Below, piece by piece: positions 2,742 through 20,035 of a stretch of 64,000 nucleotides of DNA (position 1 is the stretch's first letter; each line of letters starts with the position of its first letter). Source of the stretch: an uncultured Alistipes sp. (GTDB lineage Bacteria > Bacteroidota > Bacteroidia > Bacteroidales > Rikenellaceae). The notes beneath the pieces were generated by a model. That model saw only the letters and a list, made by a program, of their open reading frames with translations, had not been told where the DNA came from and did not search any database. The stretch is from contig CALUKI010000032.1 in NCBI GenBank assembly GCA_944321175.1, positions 124,001 to 188,000 on the forward strand, read 5' to 3'. The translations under genes and the position numbers were made by a program.

Positions 2742-2749
2742 TACCTTTG
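2742..2749 (+). promoter_or_regulatory. -7 box of the pyrimidine operon promoter
   Basis: TACCTTTG matches the Bacteroidota -7 consensus. The -33 region about 20 bases upstream is only weakly recognisable. Transcription from here would start near 2757, nine bases before a short leader reading frame. Confidence 0.6.
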
Positions 2750-2765
2750 CCCCGATATCGAAGCC

Positions 2766-2876
2766 ATGTATAAAACTCATCCGAACATAACCGGCTGCTT
2801 CGCATCCCAGCGGTTGAAGGGCAATCCTTCGGATTACGACTCTTACGGGCTTCTTATTTTCCGATTCAAAGGGTAA
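2766..2876 (+). CDS. putative pyr operon leader peptide
   Basis: A 36-codon frame that starts with ATG about ten bases after the predicted transcription start and ends with TAA inside the rising arm of the terminator at 2868-2900. Two hairpins lie within it (2789-2815 with one bulge, and AATCC/GGATT at 2823-2835), followed by a U-rich stretch at 2850-2861. A ribosome reaching the stop would cover the terminator. This is the arrangement of the E. coli pyrBI leader, where slow polymerase at low UTP lets the ribosome prevent termination. The peptide sequence itself is unremarkable. Translation is inferred. Confidence 0.5.
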   Translation: MYKTHPNITGCFASQRLKGNPSDYDSYGLLIFRFKG

Positions 2877-2900
2877 CTGTTTTTCAGTTACTCTTTTTTT
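2868..2900 (+). terminator. intrinsic terminator/attenuator in front of pyrC
   Basis: The stem GTAACTG/CAGTTAC (2873-2879 with 2885-2891) is extended by AAAGG-type pairs outside it and followed by an unbroken T7 run at 2894-2900. It ends 14 bases before the pyrC ATG and overlaps the stop codon of the leader frame, so it is placed to control the whole operon rather than end an upstream gene. Confidence 0.8.
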
Positions 2901-10497: not shown

Positions 10498-11214
10498 ATG
10501 ATACAGCGAGATGTGATCATTGCCTGCGACTTCAAGTCGGCGGAGGATACGTTCCGCTTCCTTGACCTGTTCAAGGCGGAGCAGCGCAAACCTTTTCTGA
10601 AGATCGGCATGGAACTTTTCTATGCGGAGGGCCCGGCCATCGTGCGTGAGATCAAGCGGCGCGGCCACCGGATCTTCCTCGATCTGAAACTTCATGACAT
10701 TCCCAATACGGTCAAAAAGGCGATGGCGGTGTTGTCGCGTCTGGATGTCGATATGTGCAATGTCCATGCGGCCGGTACGATCGACATGATGCGTGCGGCG
10801 CTCGAAGGGCTGACGCGCGAGGACGGGAGCCGTCCGCTGCTGATCGCCGTGACGCAGCTCACCTCGACGAGCGAGGAGCGCATGCGGCGCGAACTGCTCA
10901 TCGACGCCTCGATCAACGACACGATCGTGCAGTATGCCCGCAACACGAAGGAGGCGGGATTGGACGGCGTGGTCTGCTCGCCGCTCGAAGCGGGCATGGT
11001 CAAGGCGGCATGCGGTGCCGGCTTCCTGACGGTGACCCCCGGCGTGCGCTTCGCCGACGGCGATGCCGGCGATCAGGTGCGCATCACCACGCCCGCCCGT
11101 GCACGGGAGATCGGTTCCGATTTTATTGTGGTGGGACGTCCCATTACGGCTGCGGCCGATCCCGTAGCGGCCTATCGGCGGTGTGTGGCCGAATTTGTCG
11201 GTGAAATGCGGTAA
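10498..11214 (+). CDS. pyrF: orotidine 5'-phosphate decarboxylase
   Basis: A 238-residue TIM-barrel enzyme for the last step to UMP. The catalytic Lys-Asp array is seen in DLKLHDIPNTV (residues 62-72), and the phosphate-binding end VVGRPIT is intact. Size is normal for the short bacterial type. It lies 110 bases after pyrD with no terminator between. No unusual feature. Confidence 0.96.
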   Translation: MIQRDVIIACDFKSAEDTFRFLDLFKAEQRKPFLKIGMELFYAEGPAIVREIKRRGHRIFLDLKLHDIPNTVKKAMAVLSRLDVDMCNVHAAGTIDMMRAALEGLTREDGSRPLLIAVTQLTSTSEERMRRELLIDASINDTIVQYARNTKEAGLDGVVCSPLEAGMVKAACGAGFLTVTPGVRFADGDAGDQVRITTPARAREIGSDFIVVGRPITAAADPVAAYRRCVAEFVGEMR

Positions 11215-11267
11215 CCGGAAGAACCGGGGGCGGCGTGAAGCCGCTCCCGCAACAATACATCCAAGGT

Positions 11268-11531
11268 ATGAAGCCCGTAAAATTGTTCTATCTGAAAAAC
11301 TGCCCCTTCTGCCGCAAGGCGTTGAGGTATATCGACGACGCGAAGGCGGCGCATCCCGAACTGGCGGCCGTCGGAATCGAGATGATCGAGGAGTCGGAGC
11401 ATCCCGACGTGGCCGACACATACGATTATTACTACGTCCCGACCTTCTATGTCGGGGACGAGAAGGTTCACGAGGGCGGCATCTATCCCGACGAGGTGGA
11501 GCAGGTGCTGCGCAAGGCGTTGGAGGCGTGA
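11268..11531 (+). CDS. small thioredoxin-fold protein with CPFC motif
   Basis: An 87-residue protein. Its N-terminal KLFYLKNCPFCRKAL is a classic thioredoxin/glutaredoxin CxxC site, and VPTFYVGDEKVHEGG matches the cis-proline segment that contacts thiol partners. It is likely a cytosolic dithiol reductase or glutaredoxin-like protein; the substrate is unknown. The start is ATG 11268 in a typical A-rich context; the frame is open back to GTG 11235. Its stop overlaps the ATG of the GNAT-PyrE gene by one base, so it is embedded in the pyrimidine operon although it has no known role in UMP synthesis. Confidence 0.8.
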   Translation: MKPVKLFYLKNCPFCRKALRYIDDAKAAHPELAAVGIEMIEESEHPDVADTYDYYYVPTFYVGDEKVHEGGIYPDEVEQVLRKALEA

Positions 11532-12637
11532 TGTTCCGCGTTTCGTCATACGGGGCGGATGCGGAGCGCGGTGAGGCGCTTGTGGCGCGGTTGTCGGCGC
11601 TGTGGGAGGCGTCGGTGCGTGCGACACACGACTTTCTGAGCGAGTCCGACATCCGGATGCTGCGGCCGCAGGCCGCCGCAGCGTTGCGCGGCGTTGCGCG
11701 GCTTACGGTGGTGTGGAACTCTAAGCGGGAGGCGGTCGCCTTCATGGGTACGGAGAGGGGCCGGCTGGAGATGCTCTTTGTCGATCCCTGCTGTCGGGGT
11801 GCGGGTGTCGGAAGGATGCTCGTGCAGCGGGCGGTCGTTGAACAGGGGGTGCGGACACTGACGGTCAACGAACAGAATCCGCAGGCGCGGGGTTTTTACG
11901 AACGGATGGGCTTTGAGGTTGCGGGACGCTCCGAATGTGATGAGCAGGGTGCACCCTTCCCGATCCTCTATATGGAATTGAAAGAAGAAAACCTACATAA
12001 GATCATGGAAAGAGCCATAGCAAAAGATCTGCTCTCGATCGGCGCGGTATTTCTGCGTCCGGAGCAGCCGTTCACATGGGCAAGCGGTATCAAAAGCCCG
12101 ATTTACTGCGACAACCGTCTGACGCTTACCGCTCCGGAGGTGCGCAAGCATGTCGAGGCGGGACTTGCCGAGATCATCCGCACGAAGTATCCCGATGCGG
12201 AGGTGCTGATGGGTACCTCGACGGCCGGCATCGCCCATGCTGCGATTACGGCGACGATTCTCGACCTGCCGATGGGATATGTCCGCAGCGGCCAGAAGGA
12301 TCACGGCCGCGGCAACCGGATCGAGGGCCGGCTCGAAAAGGGACAACGGGCCGTTGTGATCGAGGACCTGATCTCGACGGCCGGATCGTGCATCGAGGTG
12401 GTCGAGGCGCTGCGTGCCGCAGGTGCCGAGGTGCTCGGCGTGGCTTCGATCTTTACCTACGGCATGCGGAAGGGACTCGACCGGCTTGCGGCGGCGCACG
12501 TTACCAACTATTCGCTGTCGAATCTCGACGTGCTGGTCGAGGTGGCAGCCGAAGAGGGCTACATCCGTCCCGAAGACAAGGCGCGGCTGATTGCCTTCCG
12601 GAACAACCCGTCGGACGAGAGCTGGATTACGAAGTGA
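11531..12637 (+). CDS. pyrE: GNAT acetyltransferase fused in frame to orotate phosphoribosyltransferase
   Basis: One uninterrupted frame of 368 codons. Residues 1-150 form a complete GNAT domain resembling E. coli YjaB (ATHDFL, LFVDPCCRGAGVGRML for acetyl-CoA, NEQNPQARGFYERMGF). After about eight linker residues comes a complete 210-residue PyrE beginning MERAIAKDLL, with the catalytic loop SGQKDHGRGN and PRPP motif VVIEDLISTAGS. PyrE joins orotate to PRPP to give OMP. The junction (ATG at 12005, A-rich before it) looks like an old start site, so PyrE may also be made alone. Either a true fusion or a lost GNAT stop codon explains the frame. The operon context supports the PyrE role; the acetyltransferase target is unknown. 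Confidence 0.85.
   Translation: MFRVSSYGADAERGEALVARLSALWEASVRATHDFLSESDIRMLRPQAAAALRGVARLTVVWNSKREAVAFMGTERGRLEMLFVDPCCRGAGVGRMLVQRAVVEQGVRTLTVNEQNPQARGFYERMGFEVAGRSECDEQGAPFPILYMELKEENLHKIMERAIAKDLLSIGAVFLRPEQPFTWASGIKSPIYCDNRLTLTAPEVRKHVEAGLAEIIRTKYPDAEVLMGTSTAGIAHAAITATILDLPMGYVRSGQKDHGRGNRIEGRLEKGQRAVVIEDLISTAGSCIEVVEALRAAGAEVLGVASIFTYGMRKGLDRLAAAHVTNYSLSNLDVLVEVAAEEGYIRPEDKARLIAFRNNPSDESWITK
12005..12637 (+). other. pyrE: alternative internal start giving stand-alone PyrE
   Basis: The ATG at 12005 begins a 210-residue protein that by itself matches full-length bacterial orotate phosphoribosyltransferase. The preceding A-rich AAAGAAGAAAACC resembles initiation regions of neighbouring genes. 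Listed as an alternative reading of the fused gene, not a second gene. Confidence 0.5.
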
Positions 12638-12731: not shown

Positions 12732-13823
12732 ATGCGTCATTTGATTGAGCCGACCGATCTGACGGGGGCCGAAACCGAAGAGATCATCGATCTTGCGCTG
12801 GACATCATCGCCCACCGCGAAAAATACCGTGAAGCGTGCAGGGGCCGCAAGCTGGCCACGCTCTTTTACGAACCGAGTACCCGTACACGGTTGAGTTTCA
12901 CCTCGGCGATGATGGAGCTGGGCGGCAATGTCATCGGTTTCTCCGATGCTGCGTCGTCGTCGGTGTCGAAGGGAGAGACCGTTGCCGATACGGTGCGTGT
13001 GATCGCCTGTTTTGCCGACATTATCGCCATGCGGCACTTCAAGGAGGGGGCTCCGCTCGTGGCGTCGCAGTATGCCGGTGTTCCGGTTATCAATGCCGGA
13101 GACGGCAGCCATGCCCATCCTACACAGACGCTTACCGACCTGTTGACGATCAAACGGGAGATGGGCCGTCTGGACAACCTTACGATCGGCTTCTGCGGCG
13201 ATCTGAAGTTCGGCCGCACGGTTCATTCGCTCATCAAGGCGTTGTCGCGCCGCACGGGAATCAAGGTGATCCTGATTGCACCGGAAGAGCTGCGGCTGCC
13301 CGATTATATCCGTCGCGAAGTGTGTGACAAGCACGGTGTGCCGACGGTCGAGGTGCGCACGATGGAGGAGGTGATGCCCGAACTGGACATCCTCTACATG
13401 ACGCGGGTGCAGAAGGAGCGTTTCCTCGACGAGGAGGAGTTCGAACGGGTCAAGGACAGTTTCGTGCTGACGCCCGAAAAACTCCGGATCGCACGCAGGG
13501 AGATGGTCATCCTCCATCCGCTGCCGCGTGTGAATGAGATTACGCGCGCGGTGGACAACGATCCGCGTGCGGCTTACTTCCGGCAGGTCGAGAACGGCAA
13601 GTTCGTCCGCATGGCCTTGATCTACACCCTGCTGAAGTGGGCCGGAGAACGGGAAACGACTCCGACGCCGCGTTTTGCCGAGCCGTTCATCGTCAATCGG
13701 ATGCGTTGTCAGAACCGTCGCTGCATCTCGGCAACGGAGGATGTGGATCAGCTCTTCCGTGAGGTGGAGGGCGAACCGGGCAGCTATCGCTGCGCCTATT
13801 GCGAGAGCAAATTCCGTGCATAG
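12732..13823 (+). CDS. pyrB: aspartate carbamoyltransferase with C-terminal PyrI-type zinc domain
   Basis: A 363-residue protein. Residues 1 to about 310 are a complete ATCase catalytic chain (STRTR carbamoyl-phosphate loop in [19 protein letters not shown]). The last 50 residues hold Cys-x4-Cys-Ile-Ser, about 22 residues, then Cys-x2-Cys-Glu, matching the zinc domain at the C-terminus of the E. coli regulatory chain PyrI (CPNSNCIS and KCKYCEKEF). The nucleotide-binding domain of PyrI is absent, and no pyrI gene lies nearby. The enzyme probably has its zinc-stabilised interface but not CTP/ATP control. It is the last gene of the pyrimidine cluster. Confidence 0.93.
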
Positions 13824-14153: not shown

Positions 14154-14185
14154 TTCGCTTTTCCGTAAAAAAGAGACTATCTTTG
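14154..14185 (+). promoter_or_regulatory. promoter of the purine leader/purE
   Basis: TTCG at 14154-14157, 20 bases, then TATCTTTG at 14178-14185. The -7 box is perfect and the -33 box has one mismatch. It lies at the end of an AT-rich stretch. Transcription should start near 14192. Confidence 0.75.
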
Positions 14186-14196
14186 TAACGGGAAAA

Positions 14197-14295
14197 ATGA
14201 ATGAAACGCACGCCATGTACGCTTTTTGGTTACAGCAGGATCAGAAAGGAGGGTACTCGAAAGGGTCCGTACATCGTTCGTGTGCGCAAGAATGA
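14197..14295 (+). CDS. possible leader peptide upstream of the pur operon
   Basis: A 32-codon frame starting with ATG a few bases after the predicted transcription start and stopping with TGA ten bases before the terminator at 14305. A ribosome at the stop would cover the left arm of that hairpin, as in the pyr leader. No run of regulatory codons is obvious. The same transcript could instead be a stand-alone small RNA of about 150 bases. Confidence 0.35.
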   Translation: MNETHAMYAFWLQQDQKGGYSKGSVHRSCAQE

Positions 14296-14304
14296 AGGAG
14301 ATGG

Positions 14305-14342
14305 AACCGCCGTGTCAGACTGTACGCGGCGGTTTTCTTTTT
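14305..14342 (+). terminator. terminator between purine promoter and purE
   Basis: An 11-base-pair stem built on AACCGCCG (14305-14312) and CGGCGGTT (14327-14334), continued inward by three pairs, followed by TTTTCTTTTT. It lies about 110 bases after the predicted transcription start and 220 bases before purE, so purE expression must read through it or use a later promoter that I cannot see. Confidence 0.8.
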
Positions 14343-14561
14343 GCCTGTAGCGCTGTCCGTCTTCTTTGCGGAGGCTCTTTTCCGATGAAGACGCTCTATG
14401 TTGGCGGTCTTCGTCCTTGGATCCGGTTCGCGGAGGCGGAACCTTCGGCATTCCGGAATGGTGCGGCCGCAAACCCTGAACCAGGGGGGGGGAGATTCGG
14501 ATAGGGGCGTTGCAGGGTTGGCGGTTGGTTGTCTGAAAAACAGTTGAAACGCGACGATAAT
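14343..14561 (+). other. untranslated stretch before purE with a G9 run
   Basis: About 220 bases between the leader terminator and purE. No further Bacteroidota promoter is visible. It holds an uninterrupted run of nine G at 14484-14492. No riboswitch family is recognised. Confidence 0.45.
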
Positions 14562-15038
14562 ATGGAAGCAAGAGTAGGAGTCATCATGGGTTCGACCAGC
14601 GACTGGGAGGTCATGGCCGCAGCCGCCGAGACGCTCGAAGCGTTCGGAGTCCCGTATGAAAAACGTGTGGTAAGCGCACACCGCACCCCCGACCTGCTGG
14701 TCGAGTATGCGAAGACGGCCCGTGAACGCGGCATCGAGGTGATCATTGCCGGTGCGGGAGGCGCTGCGCATCTGCCCGGTATGACGGCCAGCATGACACC
14801 GCTGCCCGTAATCGGCGTGCCGGTCAAGTCGCGGGCCCTGAACGGCCTTGACTCGTTGCTCTCGATCGTGCAGATGCCGGCCGGCGTGCCGGTGGCGACC
14901 GTGGCGATCAACGGCGCAAGGAATGCCGCGCTGATTGCCGTGTCGATTCTTGCGCTTTCCGATCCGGCGCTGGCCGAACGTCTCGATGCGTTCCGCACCC
15001 GTCAGACGGCCGATGTGCTGAAAGCCGAATTGCAATGA
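14562..15038 (+). CDS. purE: N5-carboxyaminoimidazole ribonucleotide mutase
   Basis: A 158-residue class I PurE that moves the carboxyl group of N5-CAIR to give CAIR. MGSTSDW binds the phosphate, and SAHRTP with [11 protein letters not shown] supply the catalytic histidines. Class I activity is expected because purK is adjacent and supplies N5-CAIR. The start is ATG 14562 (TATGGAAGC); the frame is open further upstream without homology. The stop overlaps the purK start by four bases (ATGA). Confidence 0.95.
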
Positions 15039-16147
15039 CGACAAACGGGACGGGAGTGAAGACCATTGGAATCATCGGGGCCGGACAGCTGGGTCTGATG
15101 CTGGCCGAGGAGGCGCACCGTTTGGGCGCGCGGGTCGTGACGCTCGATCCGGCGGCGGATGCGCCTGCGGCGCGGGTGGCCGACGAACATATCGTGGCGG
15201 CCTATGACGACCGGACGGCGCTCGAGACGTTGTGCCGTCACAGCGATGTGGTGACCTATGAGTTCGAGAATGTTCCGGGCGAGGTGCTTGTCCCGCTCGT
15301 GGAACGATACAACATACCGCAGGGATTTCAACCGTTGTACGATTCGCAGGACCGCCTGCGCGAAAAGCGCAATGCCGTAAAACACGGACTTCGTACGCCG
15401 CGTTTCGCACCGGCCGACGATCGGGTGTCGCTCGAAGCGGCCGTCGCCGAGGTGGGCGGTTACCCCTGTGTCTTCAAAACCCGTACGTTGGGGTATGACG
15501 GTCACGGACAGGTAGTGCTGCATTCGGCGGAGGATCTGTCGAAGGTGGAGCCCTATTTCGGTACGCCGGGCATTGTCGAGGAGTTTGTGGCGTTCGACTT
15601 CGAGACCAGTGCAATCGTTGTGAGCGACGGCCGGCAGACGATCTGTTTCCCCGTCGGCCGGAACATCCACCGCGAAGGGATTCTCGATCTGTCGATCGTT
15701 CCCTGCGAGATGTCCGACGCGCTGCATGACCGGATCGTTGCGCAGAGCAAACGGTTTATGGAGGCGTGCGGTTATCGGGGCATTCTCGCCATCGAATATT
15801 TTGTGCGGGGCGAGGAGATCTACTTCAACGAGATGGCGCCGCGACCCCACAACAGCGGGCACTGGACCATCGAGGGGTGCTCGACAAACCAGTTCCGCGA
15901 ACTGGCGCGTTATCTGTTGGGATTGCCGCTGGAGGAGCCGCGGCTGCTGGCTCCGACCGTGATGAAGAACATCCTGGGCCGGGATCTCGAAGCGGCCGAG
16001 GCAATAGCGCGCGAGGCACATGCGGACGTGTATGTCCATCTCTACGGAAAGAGCGAGTGCCGGCCCAAACGGAAGATGGGCCACATCACGTTTGTGAAGA
16101 TGACGGCCGGACGTTTTGCCGAGATGTGGGCGAAGCGTTTTGCCTGA
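15035..16147 (+). CDS. purK: 5-(carboxyamino)imidazole ribonucleotide synthase
   Basis: A 370-residue ATP-grasp enzyme that carboxylates AIR with bicarbonate to N5-CAIR. The N-terminal [16 protein letters not shown], the ATP-grasp segment [12 protein letters not shown] and [15 protein letters not shown] are characteristic. It is translationally coupled to purE. The 177 bases to purL contain a G8 run (16166-16173) but no terminator. Confidence 0.96.
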
Positions 16148-16324: not shown

Positions 16325-19300
16325 ATGAAGAGTTACCGTATTTTCGTCGAGAAACGTCCCGGATTCCGGGTTGAGGCCGAGAGCCTGCAGGAGGATCTGA
16401 ACGAGAACCTCGGATTGCATTTGCATGAATTGCGTCTGCTGAATGTGTATGACCTGTTCGGTTTCAGCGAGAAACTGCTCGAAGAGAGCCGTTACCGGGT
16501 CTTCGGAGAGGTGCAGACCGACGAAGTGCTGGACAGCTGGGATGCGGAGGGCCGCAAAAGCCTTGCTGTCGAGTATCTTCCCGGGCAGTTCGACCAGCGG
16601 GCCGCGTCGGCCGTCGATTGCGTGCGGCTGATCGATCCTGCGGCCGATGTGCGCATCCGCAGTGCGCGGCTGCTGGTCTTCGATGCCGGAACGACGGACG
16701 AAGAGGTGGCACGCATCCGCAAATACTACATCAATGCCGTTGAGTCGCGGGAGAAGGATCTCTCGGTGTTGAGCGACATGGAGCAGGCCGAGGTAAAGCC
16801 TGTACCGGTGTTGACGGGGCTGACGGCCCTGACGGAGGAGGAGCTGGCTCCCTATTGCGTCAGGATGGGGCTGGCGATGAATGCCGACGACCTGCGCGAG
16901 GTGGTGAAGTACTTCCGCGCGGAGGGGCGTGATCCCTATGAAACGGAACTTCGGATTCTGGATACCTACTGGAGCGACCATTGCCGTCATACGACCTTCA
17001 CGACGGTGCTGGAGGAGATTACGGTCGACGAGTCGTTCATGCGGGCCGAACTGGAGGAGTCGCTCGACCTCTACCGGAAGCTCCGGCACGAACTGGGCCG
17101 CGAGGAGAAGAGTCTCTGTCTGATGGATCTGGCGACGATCGGCGCGCGCTACCTGCGCAAGATCGGCAAACTCGACGACATGGAGGTCAGCGAGGAGAAC
17201 AACGCCTGCTCGATCTTTGTGACGGTCGATGTGGACGGAGAGCCGGAGAAGTGGCTGCTGCAGTTCAAGAACGAGACGCACAACCATCCGACCGAGATCG
17301 AACCGTTCGGCGGTGCTTCGACCTGTCTGGGCGGTGCGATCCGCGACCCGCTGTCGGGCCGCAGTTACGTCTATCAGGCGATGCGTGTGACGGGTGCCGG
17401 CGACATTTATCGTCCCGTGCGGGATACGCTGGCCGGAAAACTGCCGCAGCGTGTCATCAGCCGCAAGGCTGCGGCGGGCTATTCGAGCTACGGAAACCAG
17501 ATCGGTCTGGCCACGACCCATGTGCGGGAGATCTATCATCCGGACTATGTGGCCAAACGGCTGGAGGTAGGTGCCGTCGTCGGGGCCGTGAAGGCCTGCA
17601 ATGTGCGGCGTGAATCACCGGAGCCGGGCGATGTCGTGCTGATGCTGGGCGGCCGTACAGGCCGTGACGGTATCGGCGGAGCGACGGGTTCGTCGAAGGA
17701 GCACAATACCAGGTCGCTCGAAACCTGCTCGTCGGAGGTGCAGAAGGGAAATGCCCCCGAAGAGCGGAAGCTCGAACGGCTGTTCCGGCGTCCGGAGGTG
17801 ACGCGGCTGATCAAGAAGTCGAACGATTTCGGTGCAGGCGGTGTCTCGGTCGCCATCGGCGAGCTGACCGACGGTCTGGACATCTATCTGGACCGTGTGC
17901 CGACGAAATACAGCGGGTTGAATTCGACGGAGCTGGCCATCAGCGAGTCGCAGGAGCGAATGGCCGTCGTGGTCGAGCGGAAGGATGTGGAGGCCTTCAT
18001 GGCCTTCTGCGCGGAGGAGAATATCGAGGTGACGCATGTGGCCGATGTAACCGATACGCGCCGCATGCGGATGTACAACAAGGGGGAACGGGTTGTCGAT
18101 CTTTCGCGGGAGTTCATCGATTCGGCCGGCGCCAAGCACTATGCGAAGGCCGAGATCGGTGCCGTGGAGCAGCGCAATCCCTTTGTCCGGAAGATCGAGG
18201 GCGCCACGCTGGCGGACCGCATGGCGAAGAATCTCGCGGACGACAATGTCGTTTCGCAGAAGGGACTTATCGAGATGTTCGACTCGACGATCGGTGCTTC
18301 GACCGTTCTGATGCCGTTCGGCGGCCGTACGCAGGGCTCCGAAACGCAGGTGTCGGTGCAGAAACTTCCCGTCGATGGATATACCGAGACGGCCAGCATC
18401 ATGGCTTTCGGCTACAATCCCTTCCTGACCTCATGGAGCCCCTATCACGGTGCGGCATACGCCGTCGTGGAGGCCTGTGCCAAGGTTGTGGCTGCCGGTG
18501 CGCGGTTCGAGGCGATGCGCTTCTCCTACCAGGAGTATTTCGAGCGCATGCACACGCCCCGTTCGTGGGGCAAGCCGCTGGCGGCGCTGCTCGGTGCACT
18601 GCGCATGCAGGTCGAACTGGGTCTGCCGTCGATCGGCGGCAAGGACTCGATGAGCGGTACCTTCCAGCAGATCAACGTCCCGCCCATGCTGATGGCCTTC
18701 GGTATTACGACGGTCGATGCGCGTCGCGTGATCTCGACCGACTGGAAAGCGGCCGGGCATGCGCTCTATCTGCTCAAACATACACCCCGTTCCAACGGGA
18801 TGCCCGATACGGAGGCGTTGCGGCGGCTGTGGAGCGAAACCTCGGACCGCATTGCGTCCGGCGGGATCGTGGCGGCCTATGCCGTCGGCTTCGGCGGCGT
18901 GGCCGAAGCGCTGGCGAAGATGTCTTTCGGCAACCGTATCGGTGCGGAGGTCGAACTTGCGGAAGAGCGGCTCTTTGCCTATGATTACGGTTCGATCGTC
19001 GTCGAATGTCTCGGTGAGATCGATGCTCCCTATGCCGTGCGGCTGGGCTGCACGACGACGGACGAGGCGCTGACGGTCAACGGTGTGCGGATGCCGCTCG
19101 ACGGGCTGCTGCGTGCCAATACCGAACGTTTTACCCGCATCTATCCCGATCGGGGACGCAACCGCGCAGCGGCCATTCCGGAGCCGACGGCATCGGCCGG
19201 CGCGGCCGTATATGCAGGCGAGGCGGTCGAACATCCGTTGGCCTACCTGCCGGTCTTCCCCGGCACGAACTGCGATTACGATACGGCGCGCGCCTTCCGG

Positions 19301-20035
19301 CGTGCGGGGGCCGAGGTCGAGAGTACGGTCTTCTGCAACCTCACGGCCGATGCGATCGAACGTTCGATCGCCGAGATGAAGGAGCATATCCGCCGCTGTC
19401 AGATCTTCGTGCTGAGCGGAGGGTTCTCGTCGGGCGACGAGCCCGACGGCAGCGGCAAGTTCATCGCTGCCGTGCTGAACAACCGTGAAATTGCCGAAGA
19501 GATTCACGCCTTGATCGGCAGGGGCGGTCTGATTCTGGGTATCTGCAACGGATTCCAGGCATTGATAAAATCAGGCCTGTTGCCTTACGGACGCCTGGGC
19601 TGCGTGACGCAGGATTCCCCGACGTTGTTCCGCAACGACGTCAACCGGCATGTCTCGCAGATCGTCACCACGCGTGTGGCTTCGACCGCTTCGCCCTGGC
19701 TGCGCGGCTTTGCCGTCGGCGATCTGCATCGGATCGCCGTCAGTCATGGCGAGGGAAAGTTCGTCGTCGGCGATGCGATGGCCCGCGAACTCTTCGCCAA
19801 AGGGCAGGTCGCGTTCCAGTATGCCGACGAACAGGGACATGCGACGATGGAGGCGCCCTGCAATCCCAACGGGTCGTTCTACGCCATTGAGGGCCTTCTC
19901 TCGGCCGACGGACGTATTTTGGGAAAGATGGGCCACACGGAGCGTTACGATGAGAATTTGTTCAAGAATATCTATGGAGAGAAGCGGCAGCCGTTGTTCG
20001 AAAACGCCGTTGCCTATTTCCGCAAACAGATCTGA
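16325..20035 (+). CDS. purL: phosphoribosylformylglycinamidine synthase, single-chain type
   Basis: A 1236-residue large PurL, the form also found in Proteobacteria, uniting the PurS-like N-terminus, two AIRS-like ATP-binding halves and a C-terminal class I glutaminase. The nucleophile is C1074 in LGICNGFQAL, preceded by VLSGGFSSGDEPDGS. LDTYWSDHCRHTTF marks the linker and substrate region near residue 220. It converts FGAR, glutamine and ATP to FGAM. No separate purS or purQ is needed. The next gene begins seven bases later. Confidence 0.97.
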   Translation: MKSYRIFVEKRPGFRVEAESLQEDLNENLGLHLHELRLLNVYDLFGFSEKLLEESRYRVFGEVQTDEVLDSWDAEGRKSLAVEYLPGQFDQRAASAVDCVRLIDPAADVRIRSARLLVFDAGTTDEEVARIRKYYINAVESREKDLSVLSDMEQAEVKPVPVLTGLTALTEEELAPYCVRMGLAMNADDLREVVKYFRAEGRDPYETELRILDTYWSDHCRHTTFTTVLEEITVDESFMRAELEESLDLYRKLRHELGREEKSLCLMDLATIGARYLRKIGKLDDMEVSEENNACSIFVTVDVDGEPEKWLLQFKNETHNHPTEIEPFGGASTCLGGAIRDPLSGRSYVYQAMRVTGAGDIYRPVRDTLAGKLPQRVISRKAAAGYSSYGNQIGLATTHVREIYHPDYVAKRLEVGAVVGAVKACNVRRESPEPGDVVLMLGGRTGRDGIGGATGSSKEHNTRSLETCSSEVQKGNAPEERKLERLFRRPEVTRLIKKSNDFGAGGVSVAIGELTDGLDIYLDRVPTKYSGLNSTELAISESQERMAVVVERKDVEAFMAFCAEENIEVTHVADVTDTRRMRMYNKGERVVDLSREFIDSAGAKHYAKAEIGAVEQRNPFVRKIEGATLADRMAKNLADDNVVSQKGLIEMFDSTIGASTVLMPFGGRTQGSETQVSVQKLPVDGYTETASIMAFGYNPFLTSWSPYHGAAYAVVEACAKVVAAGARFEAMRFSYQEYFERMHTPRSWGKPLAALLGALRMQVELGLPSIGGKDSMSGTFQQINVPPMLMAFGITTVDARRVISTDWKAAGHALYLLKHTPRSNGMPDTEALRRLWSETSDRIASGGIVAAYAVGFGGVAEALAKMSFGNRIGAEVELAEERLFAYDYGSIVVECLGEIDAPYAVRLGCTTTDEALTVNGVRMPLDGLLRANTERFTRIYPDRGRNRAAAIPEPTASAGAAVYAGEAVEHPLAYLPVFPGTNCDYDTARAFRRAGAEVESTVFCNLTADAIERSIAEMKEHIRRCQIFVLSGGFSSGDEPDGSGKFIAAVLNNREIAEEIHALIGRGGLILGICNGFQALIKSGLLPYGRLGCVTQDSPTLFRNDVNRHVSQIVTTRVASTASPWLRGFAVGDLHRIAVSHGEGKFVVGDAMARELFAKGQVAFQYADEQGHATMEAPCNPNGSFYAIEGLLSADGRILGKMGHTERYDENLFKNIYGEKRQPLFENAVAYFRKQI

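Follow-up and report, generated by a model that had tools for sequence, protein, structure and literature searches.

Several described attenuators resemble the locus studied here. In Bacillus subtilis the purE operon is also subject to attenuation, through a guanine riboswitch leader that is aptamer-based. The rph-pyrE attenuator of Escherichia coli senses uridine triphosphate (UTP). Its upstream frame is a full gene rather than a leader peptide and, like the leader described below, has its stop a few bases 5' of the hairpin. The pyrBI attenuator of E. coli consists of a leader open reading frame (ORF), pyrL, and an intrinsic terminator. Passages of two papers describe how tight coupling of ribosome and RNA polymerase prevents its hairpin from forming (PMC5021804, PMC4824070). 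A passage of the second reports an E. coli terminator with a stop codon 5 bp upstream, the efficiency of which falls from about 90% to below 10%, and states that uncoupled translation abolishes this suppression (PMC4824070). Leader-peptide attenuation has been proposed for amino-acid operons of Flavobacterium in an excerpt of a further study (PMC9723704). Leader-peptide-like short ORFs are reported in long 5' untranslated regions of Bacteroides thetaiotaomicron, with no purine example in the portion of that paper available (PMC7366714). No description of a leader-peptide attenuator of a purine biosynthesis operon was found in the open-access literature searched, Bacteroidetes and Alistipes included. 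Here we describe a candidate for such an element upstream of purE in an uncultured Alistipes sp. (GCA_944321175.1, contig CALUKI010000032.1, positions 124,001 to 188,000). This stretch of 64,000 nucleotides (nt) is referred to as the window.

The purE element is probably a transcription attenuator that works through transcription-translation coupling, like pyrBI of E. coli, and by its layout it would regulate the purE operon. It shares with pyrBI a short ORF directly after the promoter, an ORF that lies against the terminator, and a terminator without a second promoter. In the passages available on pyrBI the terminator lies within the leader gene, whereas here the stop codon stands just before the hairpin. 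It also differs in that purE would be the controlled gene and that the ORF of many species begins at the predicted 5' end of the RNA. An earlier sequence-only reading had placed a promoter, a 32-codon frame and a strong terminator before purE, and all three were found there (Table 1). It gave the distance from stop codon to terminator as ten bases and from terminator to purE as 220 bases. The measured values were close, with the stop codon ending 7 to 9 nt 5' of the terminator stem and about 219 nt separating the terminator end from purE. The Bacteroidetes -7 box spans positions -12 to -5, according to part of a published account (PMC6847099), so transcription is predicted to start at about 14190. 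The ATG is 11 nt after the box and the window's pur leader is therefore not leaderless. The terminator stem has 13 pairs followed by a U tract, and leader plus terminator folded more stably than shuffled sequences (z -2.9). A second open frame (14201-14350) overlaps the 32-codon frame. The 32-codon frame was preferred because its position agrees with other genomes, not from the window alone. In a scan of both strands of the window the combination of promoter, leader ORF and abutting terminator occurred only twice, at the pur leader and at the pyr leader. An extra row of the same scan paired one of these promoters with another, overlapping frame and a weaker hairpin downstream.

The layout was compared across 112 purE upstream regions from the window's own genus (g1, Alistipes-like) and genus g44. 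PurE was found in 95 of 101 genomes of the window's genus, and further genomes of the family and order were added. The genus gave 96 purE places, six of which are outside the count. Loci L063 and L067 were left out because their contigs, judged by length, are those of L263 and L279, and L069 was left out as outside both genera. With a relaxed finder, 92 of the 112 regions had a promoter, an ORF and a hairpin abutting it; the addition of L262 by hand gave 93 annotated leaders. An earlier automatic annotation with a required stem motif had found 69 of 94 and picked the wrong hairpin for the window, and it was superseded. In an unbiased test the hairpin and promoter were picked without the ORF, and an ORF of at least 20 codons was then required to end between -13 and +5 nt of the hairpin. 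This test covered 84 of the 112 loci; no hairpin qualified in 18 of the others, and 10 had no promoter in range. The ORF reached the terminator in 75 of the 84 leaders compared to 4.0 expected from dinucleotide shuffles. In a first shuffle test (66 of 76 compared to 3.5) the ORF was already known when the promoters were picked, and the unbiased test replaced it. The ATG was 2 to 7 nt after the -7 box in 41 of the 84 leaders (0.31 expected from shuffles). It was 4 or 5 nt after the box, which is the predicted first nucleotide, in 45 of the 93 annotated leaders. Leaderless mRNAs made up 5.5% of those examined in Flavobacterium psychrophilum in the available part of that study (PMC9723704). The stop codon lay 5' of the stem, mostly at 3 to 8 nt from the hairpin.

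Beyond the hairpin no further promoter was found. A -7 box at least 10 nt past the hairpin was absent from 92 of 92 leaders, and the median distance from hairpin end to purE match was 48 nt. purE is therefore most simply reached by readthrough. In the window the motif TAnnTTTG was absent between 14343 and 14561. The sequence-only reading had named a promoter in this interval together with an unconserved leader as the outcome that would speak against it; neither was observed, the leader being conserved. That reading had also offered a separate small RNA, about 150 nt long. This alternative, under which purE would have its own promoter, is now weaker and is considered very unlikely. A discrete transcript bounded by promoter and terminator, the stable fold given above, and a weak sigma-70-like match (9 of 12 positions, at 14533-14561) would suit a small RNA. 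The match is not of the promoter type of this phylum, all 92 leaders lack a second -7 box, and conservation follows the frame and the architecture rather than the nucleotide sequence.

The nucleotide sequence of the leader is unconserved across the genus, and its frame and architecture are conserved. Apart from the window, a DNA search of 61 genomes gave only matches that were short and weak, and many of these were to the promoter. The leader frame is under coding selection. The ratio of nonsynonymous to synonymous change (pN/pS) was 0.53 in the leader frame compared to 1.12 and 0.91 in the other two frames (102 related pairs). In the closest relative, genome G238 (PurE 97% identical), the leader was kept with one in-frame insertion of 3 nt and the terminator was nearly identical to that of the window, while the stretch between terminator and purE had diverged and was longer. 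This stretch in G238 (locus L262) contains a long purine-rich expansion of GAGA and GAAG repeats that is absent from the window. A TnaC-like nascent-peptide arrest, in which the leader peptide would stall the ribosome at its stop codon on sensing of a ligand and the stalled ribosome would mask the hairpin, agrees with a stop that abuts the hairpin, with a pN/pS below 1, and with residues that recur near the C-terminus (Cys 4 to 5 and Gln 5 to 11 codons before the stop). It is nevertheless quite improbable, as the peptides diverge strongly between clades (50 clusters) with no single common motif. The recurrence is due in part to the hexamer TGTGCG, which recurs within the last 45 nt of pur leaders and is translated in more than one reading frame.

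In the proposed mechanism RNA polymerase would start at the -7 box and a ribosome would begin to translate the leader ORF, which in many species means at the RNA 5' end. Should this ribosome occupy the final codons or the stop when the polymerase is at the U tract, the base of the 5' arm would be covered, no hairpin would form and purE would be transcribed. If the polymerase is ahead of the ribosome, the terminator would form and transcription would end. A ribosome on the stop codon would cover roughly 9 to 12 nt 3' of the stop. When the 9 nt after the stop were masked the median hairpin energy changed from -17.7 to -11.0 kcal/mol, and masking of 12 nt changed it to -3.7 kcal/mol.

No antiterminator was found, as leaders paired with the 5' arm no more than shuffles did (mean z +0.42, 76 leaders). 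This bears on a novel aptamer, or riboswitch, governing the terminator. RNAalifold suggested a stem inside the leader from 10 leaders, with some compensated pairs. The leaders are too divergent for such an element, no antiterminator pairing was seen and no Rfam match reached the gathering score, and an aptamer is extremely unlikely. The Rfam covariance models gave no match at the gathering score at the window leader or at 20 related loci, confirming the sequence-only reading that no known purine or phosphoribosyl pyrophosphate (PRPP) riboswitch is present. A known purine, PRPP or guanosine tetraphosphate (ppGpp) riboswitch or other Rfam RNA was rejected; there were three weak matches below threshold, two of them on the opposite strand. 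A purE neighbourhood is a hint of 6S RNA. This candidate was also rejected, with only sub-threshold matches in the genome for Bacteroidales-1 and none for 6S-Flavo. RF01693 and RF01685 had no match over the cut-off in the genome.

The pyr leader of the window has the same plan, and in 27 of 30 relatives this plan was found with the stop either within the terminator stem or at its edge. Together with the 92 of 112 pur loci this supports the earlier suggestion that both operons share a leader-peptide strategy. The pyr peptides form a family, often reading ..QxFWQQDYWSG..IIVLLG, with the stop codon in the terminator stem GGGTAAC (27 of 30 relatives). The pur leader resembles the pyr leader and is unlike the his leaders of the genus in its stop position and control codons. 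The his leaders served as a positive control. hisG was present in 15 of 61 sampled genomes, and 13 of the 15 loci had a His-rich leader peptide with the stop 27 to 85 nt before the terminator. These were L302 (on contig C7 of the window's genome), L303, L305-L307 and L309-L316. trpE was tried as a second control and was found in 1 of 61 genomes only, below its cut-off. The his leaders, as an example of amino-acid leader attenuators, share with the pur leader a short ORF followed by a terminator before a biosynthetic operon. The pur leader is without both the His runs and the distant stop, and a control-codon run of the kind formed by His was not found in pur leaders.

Glutamine (Gln) was the most enriched residue in both leader families when compared to shuffles, at 7.7% against 3.5% in pur leaders and 8.0% against 3.2% in pyr leaders. 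A length filter removed three of the 93 pur leaders, and composition was tested on the other 90. With clusters weighted the pur value was 6.3%, and 38 of 50 clusters were above 3.5%. In pur leaders Gln peaked 5 to 11 and 15 to 21 codons before the stop. The purine and pyrimidine enzymes of the window contained 2.3% Gln. Both pathways use glutamine as amide donor. Because of this and of the enrichment in both families, a glutamine gate on both operons is possible. Control by codon supply is a different scheme, in which glutamine would be sensed through the Gln codons: a shortage of Gln-tRNA stalls the ribosome upstream, the hairpin is left free and the operon is off. The Gln content of the two families and of the pur clusters, relative to that of the pathway enzymes, would be consistent with it. 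It is unlikely, since the pur leaders have no control-codon run like that of the genus's own his leaders and the MKG/MER leader group has only 3.6% Gln.

For the attenuator by coupling, the signal is suggested with less certainty to be low guanosine or adenosine triphosphate (GTP or ATP) slowing the polymerase in the purine-rich leader end and the G-rich 3' arm. With similar caution, such a purine signal would mirror the U-rich pyr leader, where T made up 0.42 of the last 30 nt before the stop; A+G made up 0.61 of the last 30 nt in pur leaders. Among 81 pur hairpins, taken from 93 upstream regions, 71 had more G in the 3' arm than in the 5' arm and three had less. The pyr hairpins had the reverse polarity (27 pooled), and generic hairpins of the window were split (32 and 28 of 73). 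This polarity fits polymerase slowing on the scarce nucleotide. The full proposal of a purine-sensing leader-peptide attenuator that mirrors the pyr one with the terminator-arm polarity swapped, is often leaderless and is possibly gated by glutamine in both operons is tentative, and we put it somewhat short of an even chance.

A number of observations weigh against attenuation by coupling and against the purine signal. The pur stop precedes the hairpin rather than entering the stem, so that a ribosome covering 9 nt would occlude the hairpin only in part. At the A+G value given, the purine tract is modest, and the A-rich last 10 nt of pur leaders may be an ordinary terminator A-tract. Hairpin polarity is inherited, hence the 71 loci are not 71 independent events. 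GTP sensing is complicated by the fact that translation, too, is driven by GTP. Indels in pairwise alignments were multiples of three in 106 of 325 cases inside ORFs compared to 24 of 127 outside, and are not clearly frame-preserving. The layout was wholly absent from six g1 and g44 loci (L176, L179, L191, L192, L195 and L199), five of which had a -7 box 44 to 46 nt before the purE match. Promoter and hairpin were kept in L052, L059 and L060 with a shortened leader in which the ATG frame was absent. The frame of L037 had no stop before the hairpin. The remaining finder misses include hairpins or promoters beyond the limits (e.g., L262) and Ns in the contig (L062).

The layout was absent from all 19 loci sampled in other genera of the family, of which 18 had a -7 box 45 to 110 nt before purE. 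It was also found in none of 29 loci from other families of the order, which were cut at the assumed match start with truncated flanks unchecked. It is therefore probable that the common ancestor of g1 and g44 gained the attenuator. If the proposal is true, one gut lineage controls both nucleotide pathways through polymerase-ribosome coupling. Such coupling would operate in a phylum without Shine-Dalgarno sequences and often on predicted leaderless RNAs. Transcription-translation coupling in Bacteroidetes would be directly testable, with about 90 natural variants of stop-to-terminator spacing available.

Table 1. Features of the pur and pyr leader regions, in window coordinates.
Feature	Position	Strand	Basis
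-7 box of pur leader, Bacteroidetes type, TATCTTTG	14178-14185	+	sequence, window scan
pur leader ORF, 32 codons, MNETHAMYAFWLQQDQKGGYSKGSVHRSCAQE; ATG 14197, TGA 14293-14295	14197-14295	+	window scan
Putative attenuator (intrinsic terminator): stem 14303-14336, G-rich 3' arm, U-rich tract	14303 to 14342-14344	+	terminator scan, fold
purE, first structural gene of the putatively controlled operon	14562-15038	+	translation; PurE search in relatives
purK, overlaps purE	15035-16147	+	named from translation
purL	16325-20035	+	named from translation
-7 box of pyr leader	2742-2749	+	window scan
pyr leader ORF, MYKTHPNITGCFASQRLKGNPSDYDSYGLLIFRFKG; stop within terminator stem	2766-2876	+	window scan, relatives
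pyr terminator, followed by pyrC at 2918	2868-2896	+	window scan, relatives

The gene order of the window runs from pyrC (2918) to pyrB (12732-13823), then the leader, then purE-purK-purL. Gene names in the window apart from purE were read from translations only. A Cys-rich stretch closes the pyrB frame and, judged by sequence only, resembles a PyrI zinc domain in fused form. Inside the pyr gene cluster, at 11235-11531, a small frame, LFYLKNCPFCRK, was glutaredoxin-like. The adjoining long frame at 11183-12637 had an apparent acetyltransferase-like stretch before pyrE in its translation.
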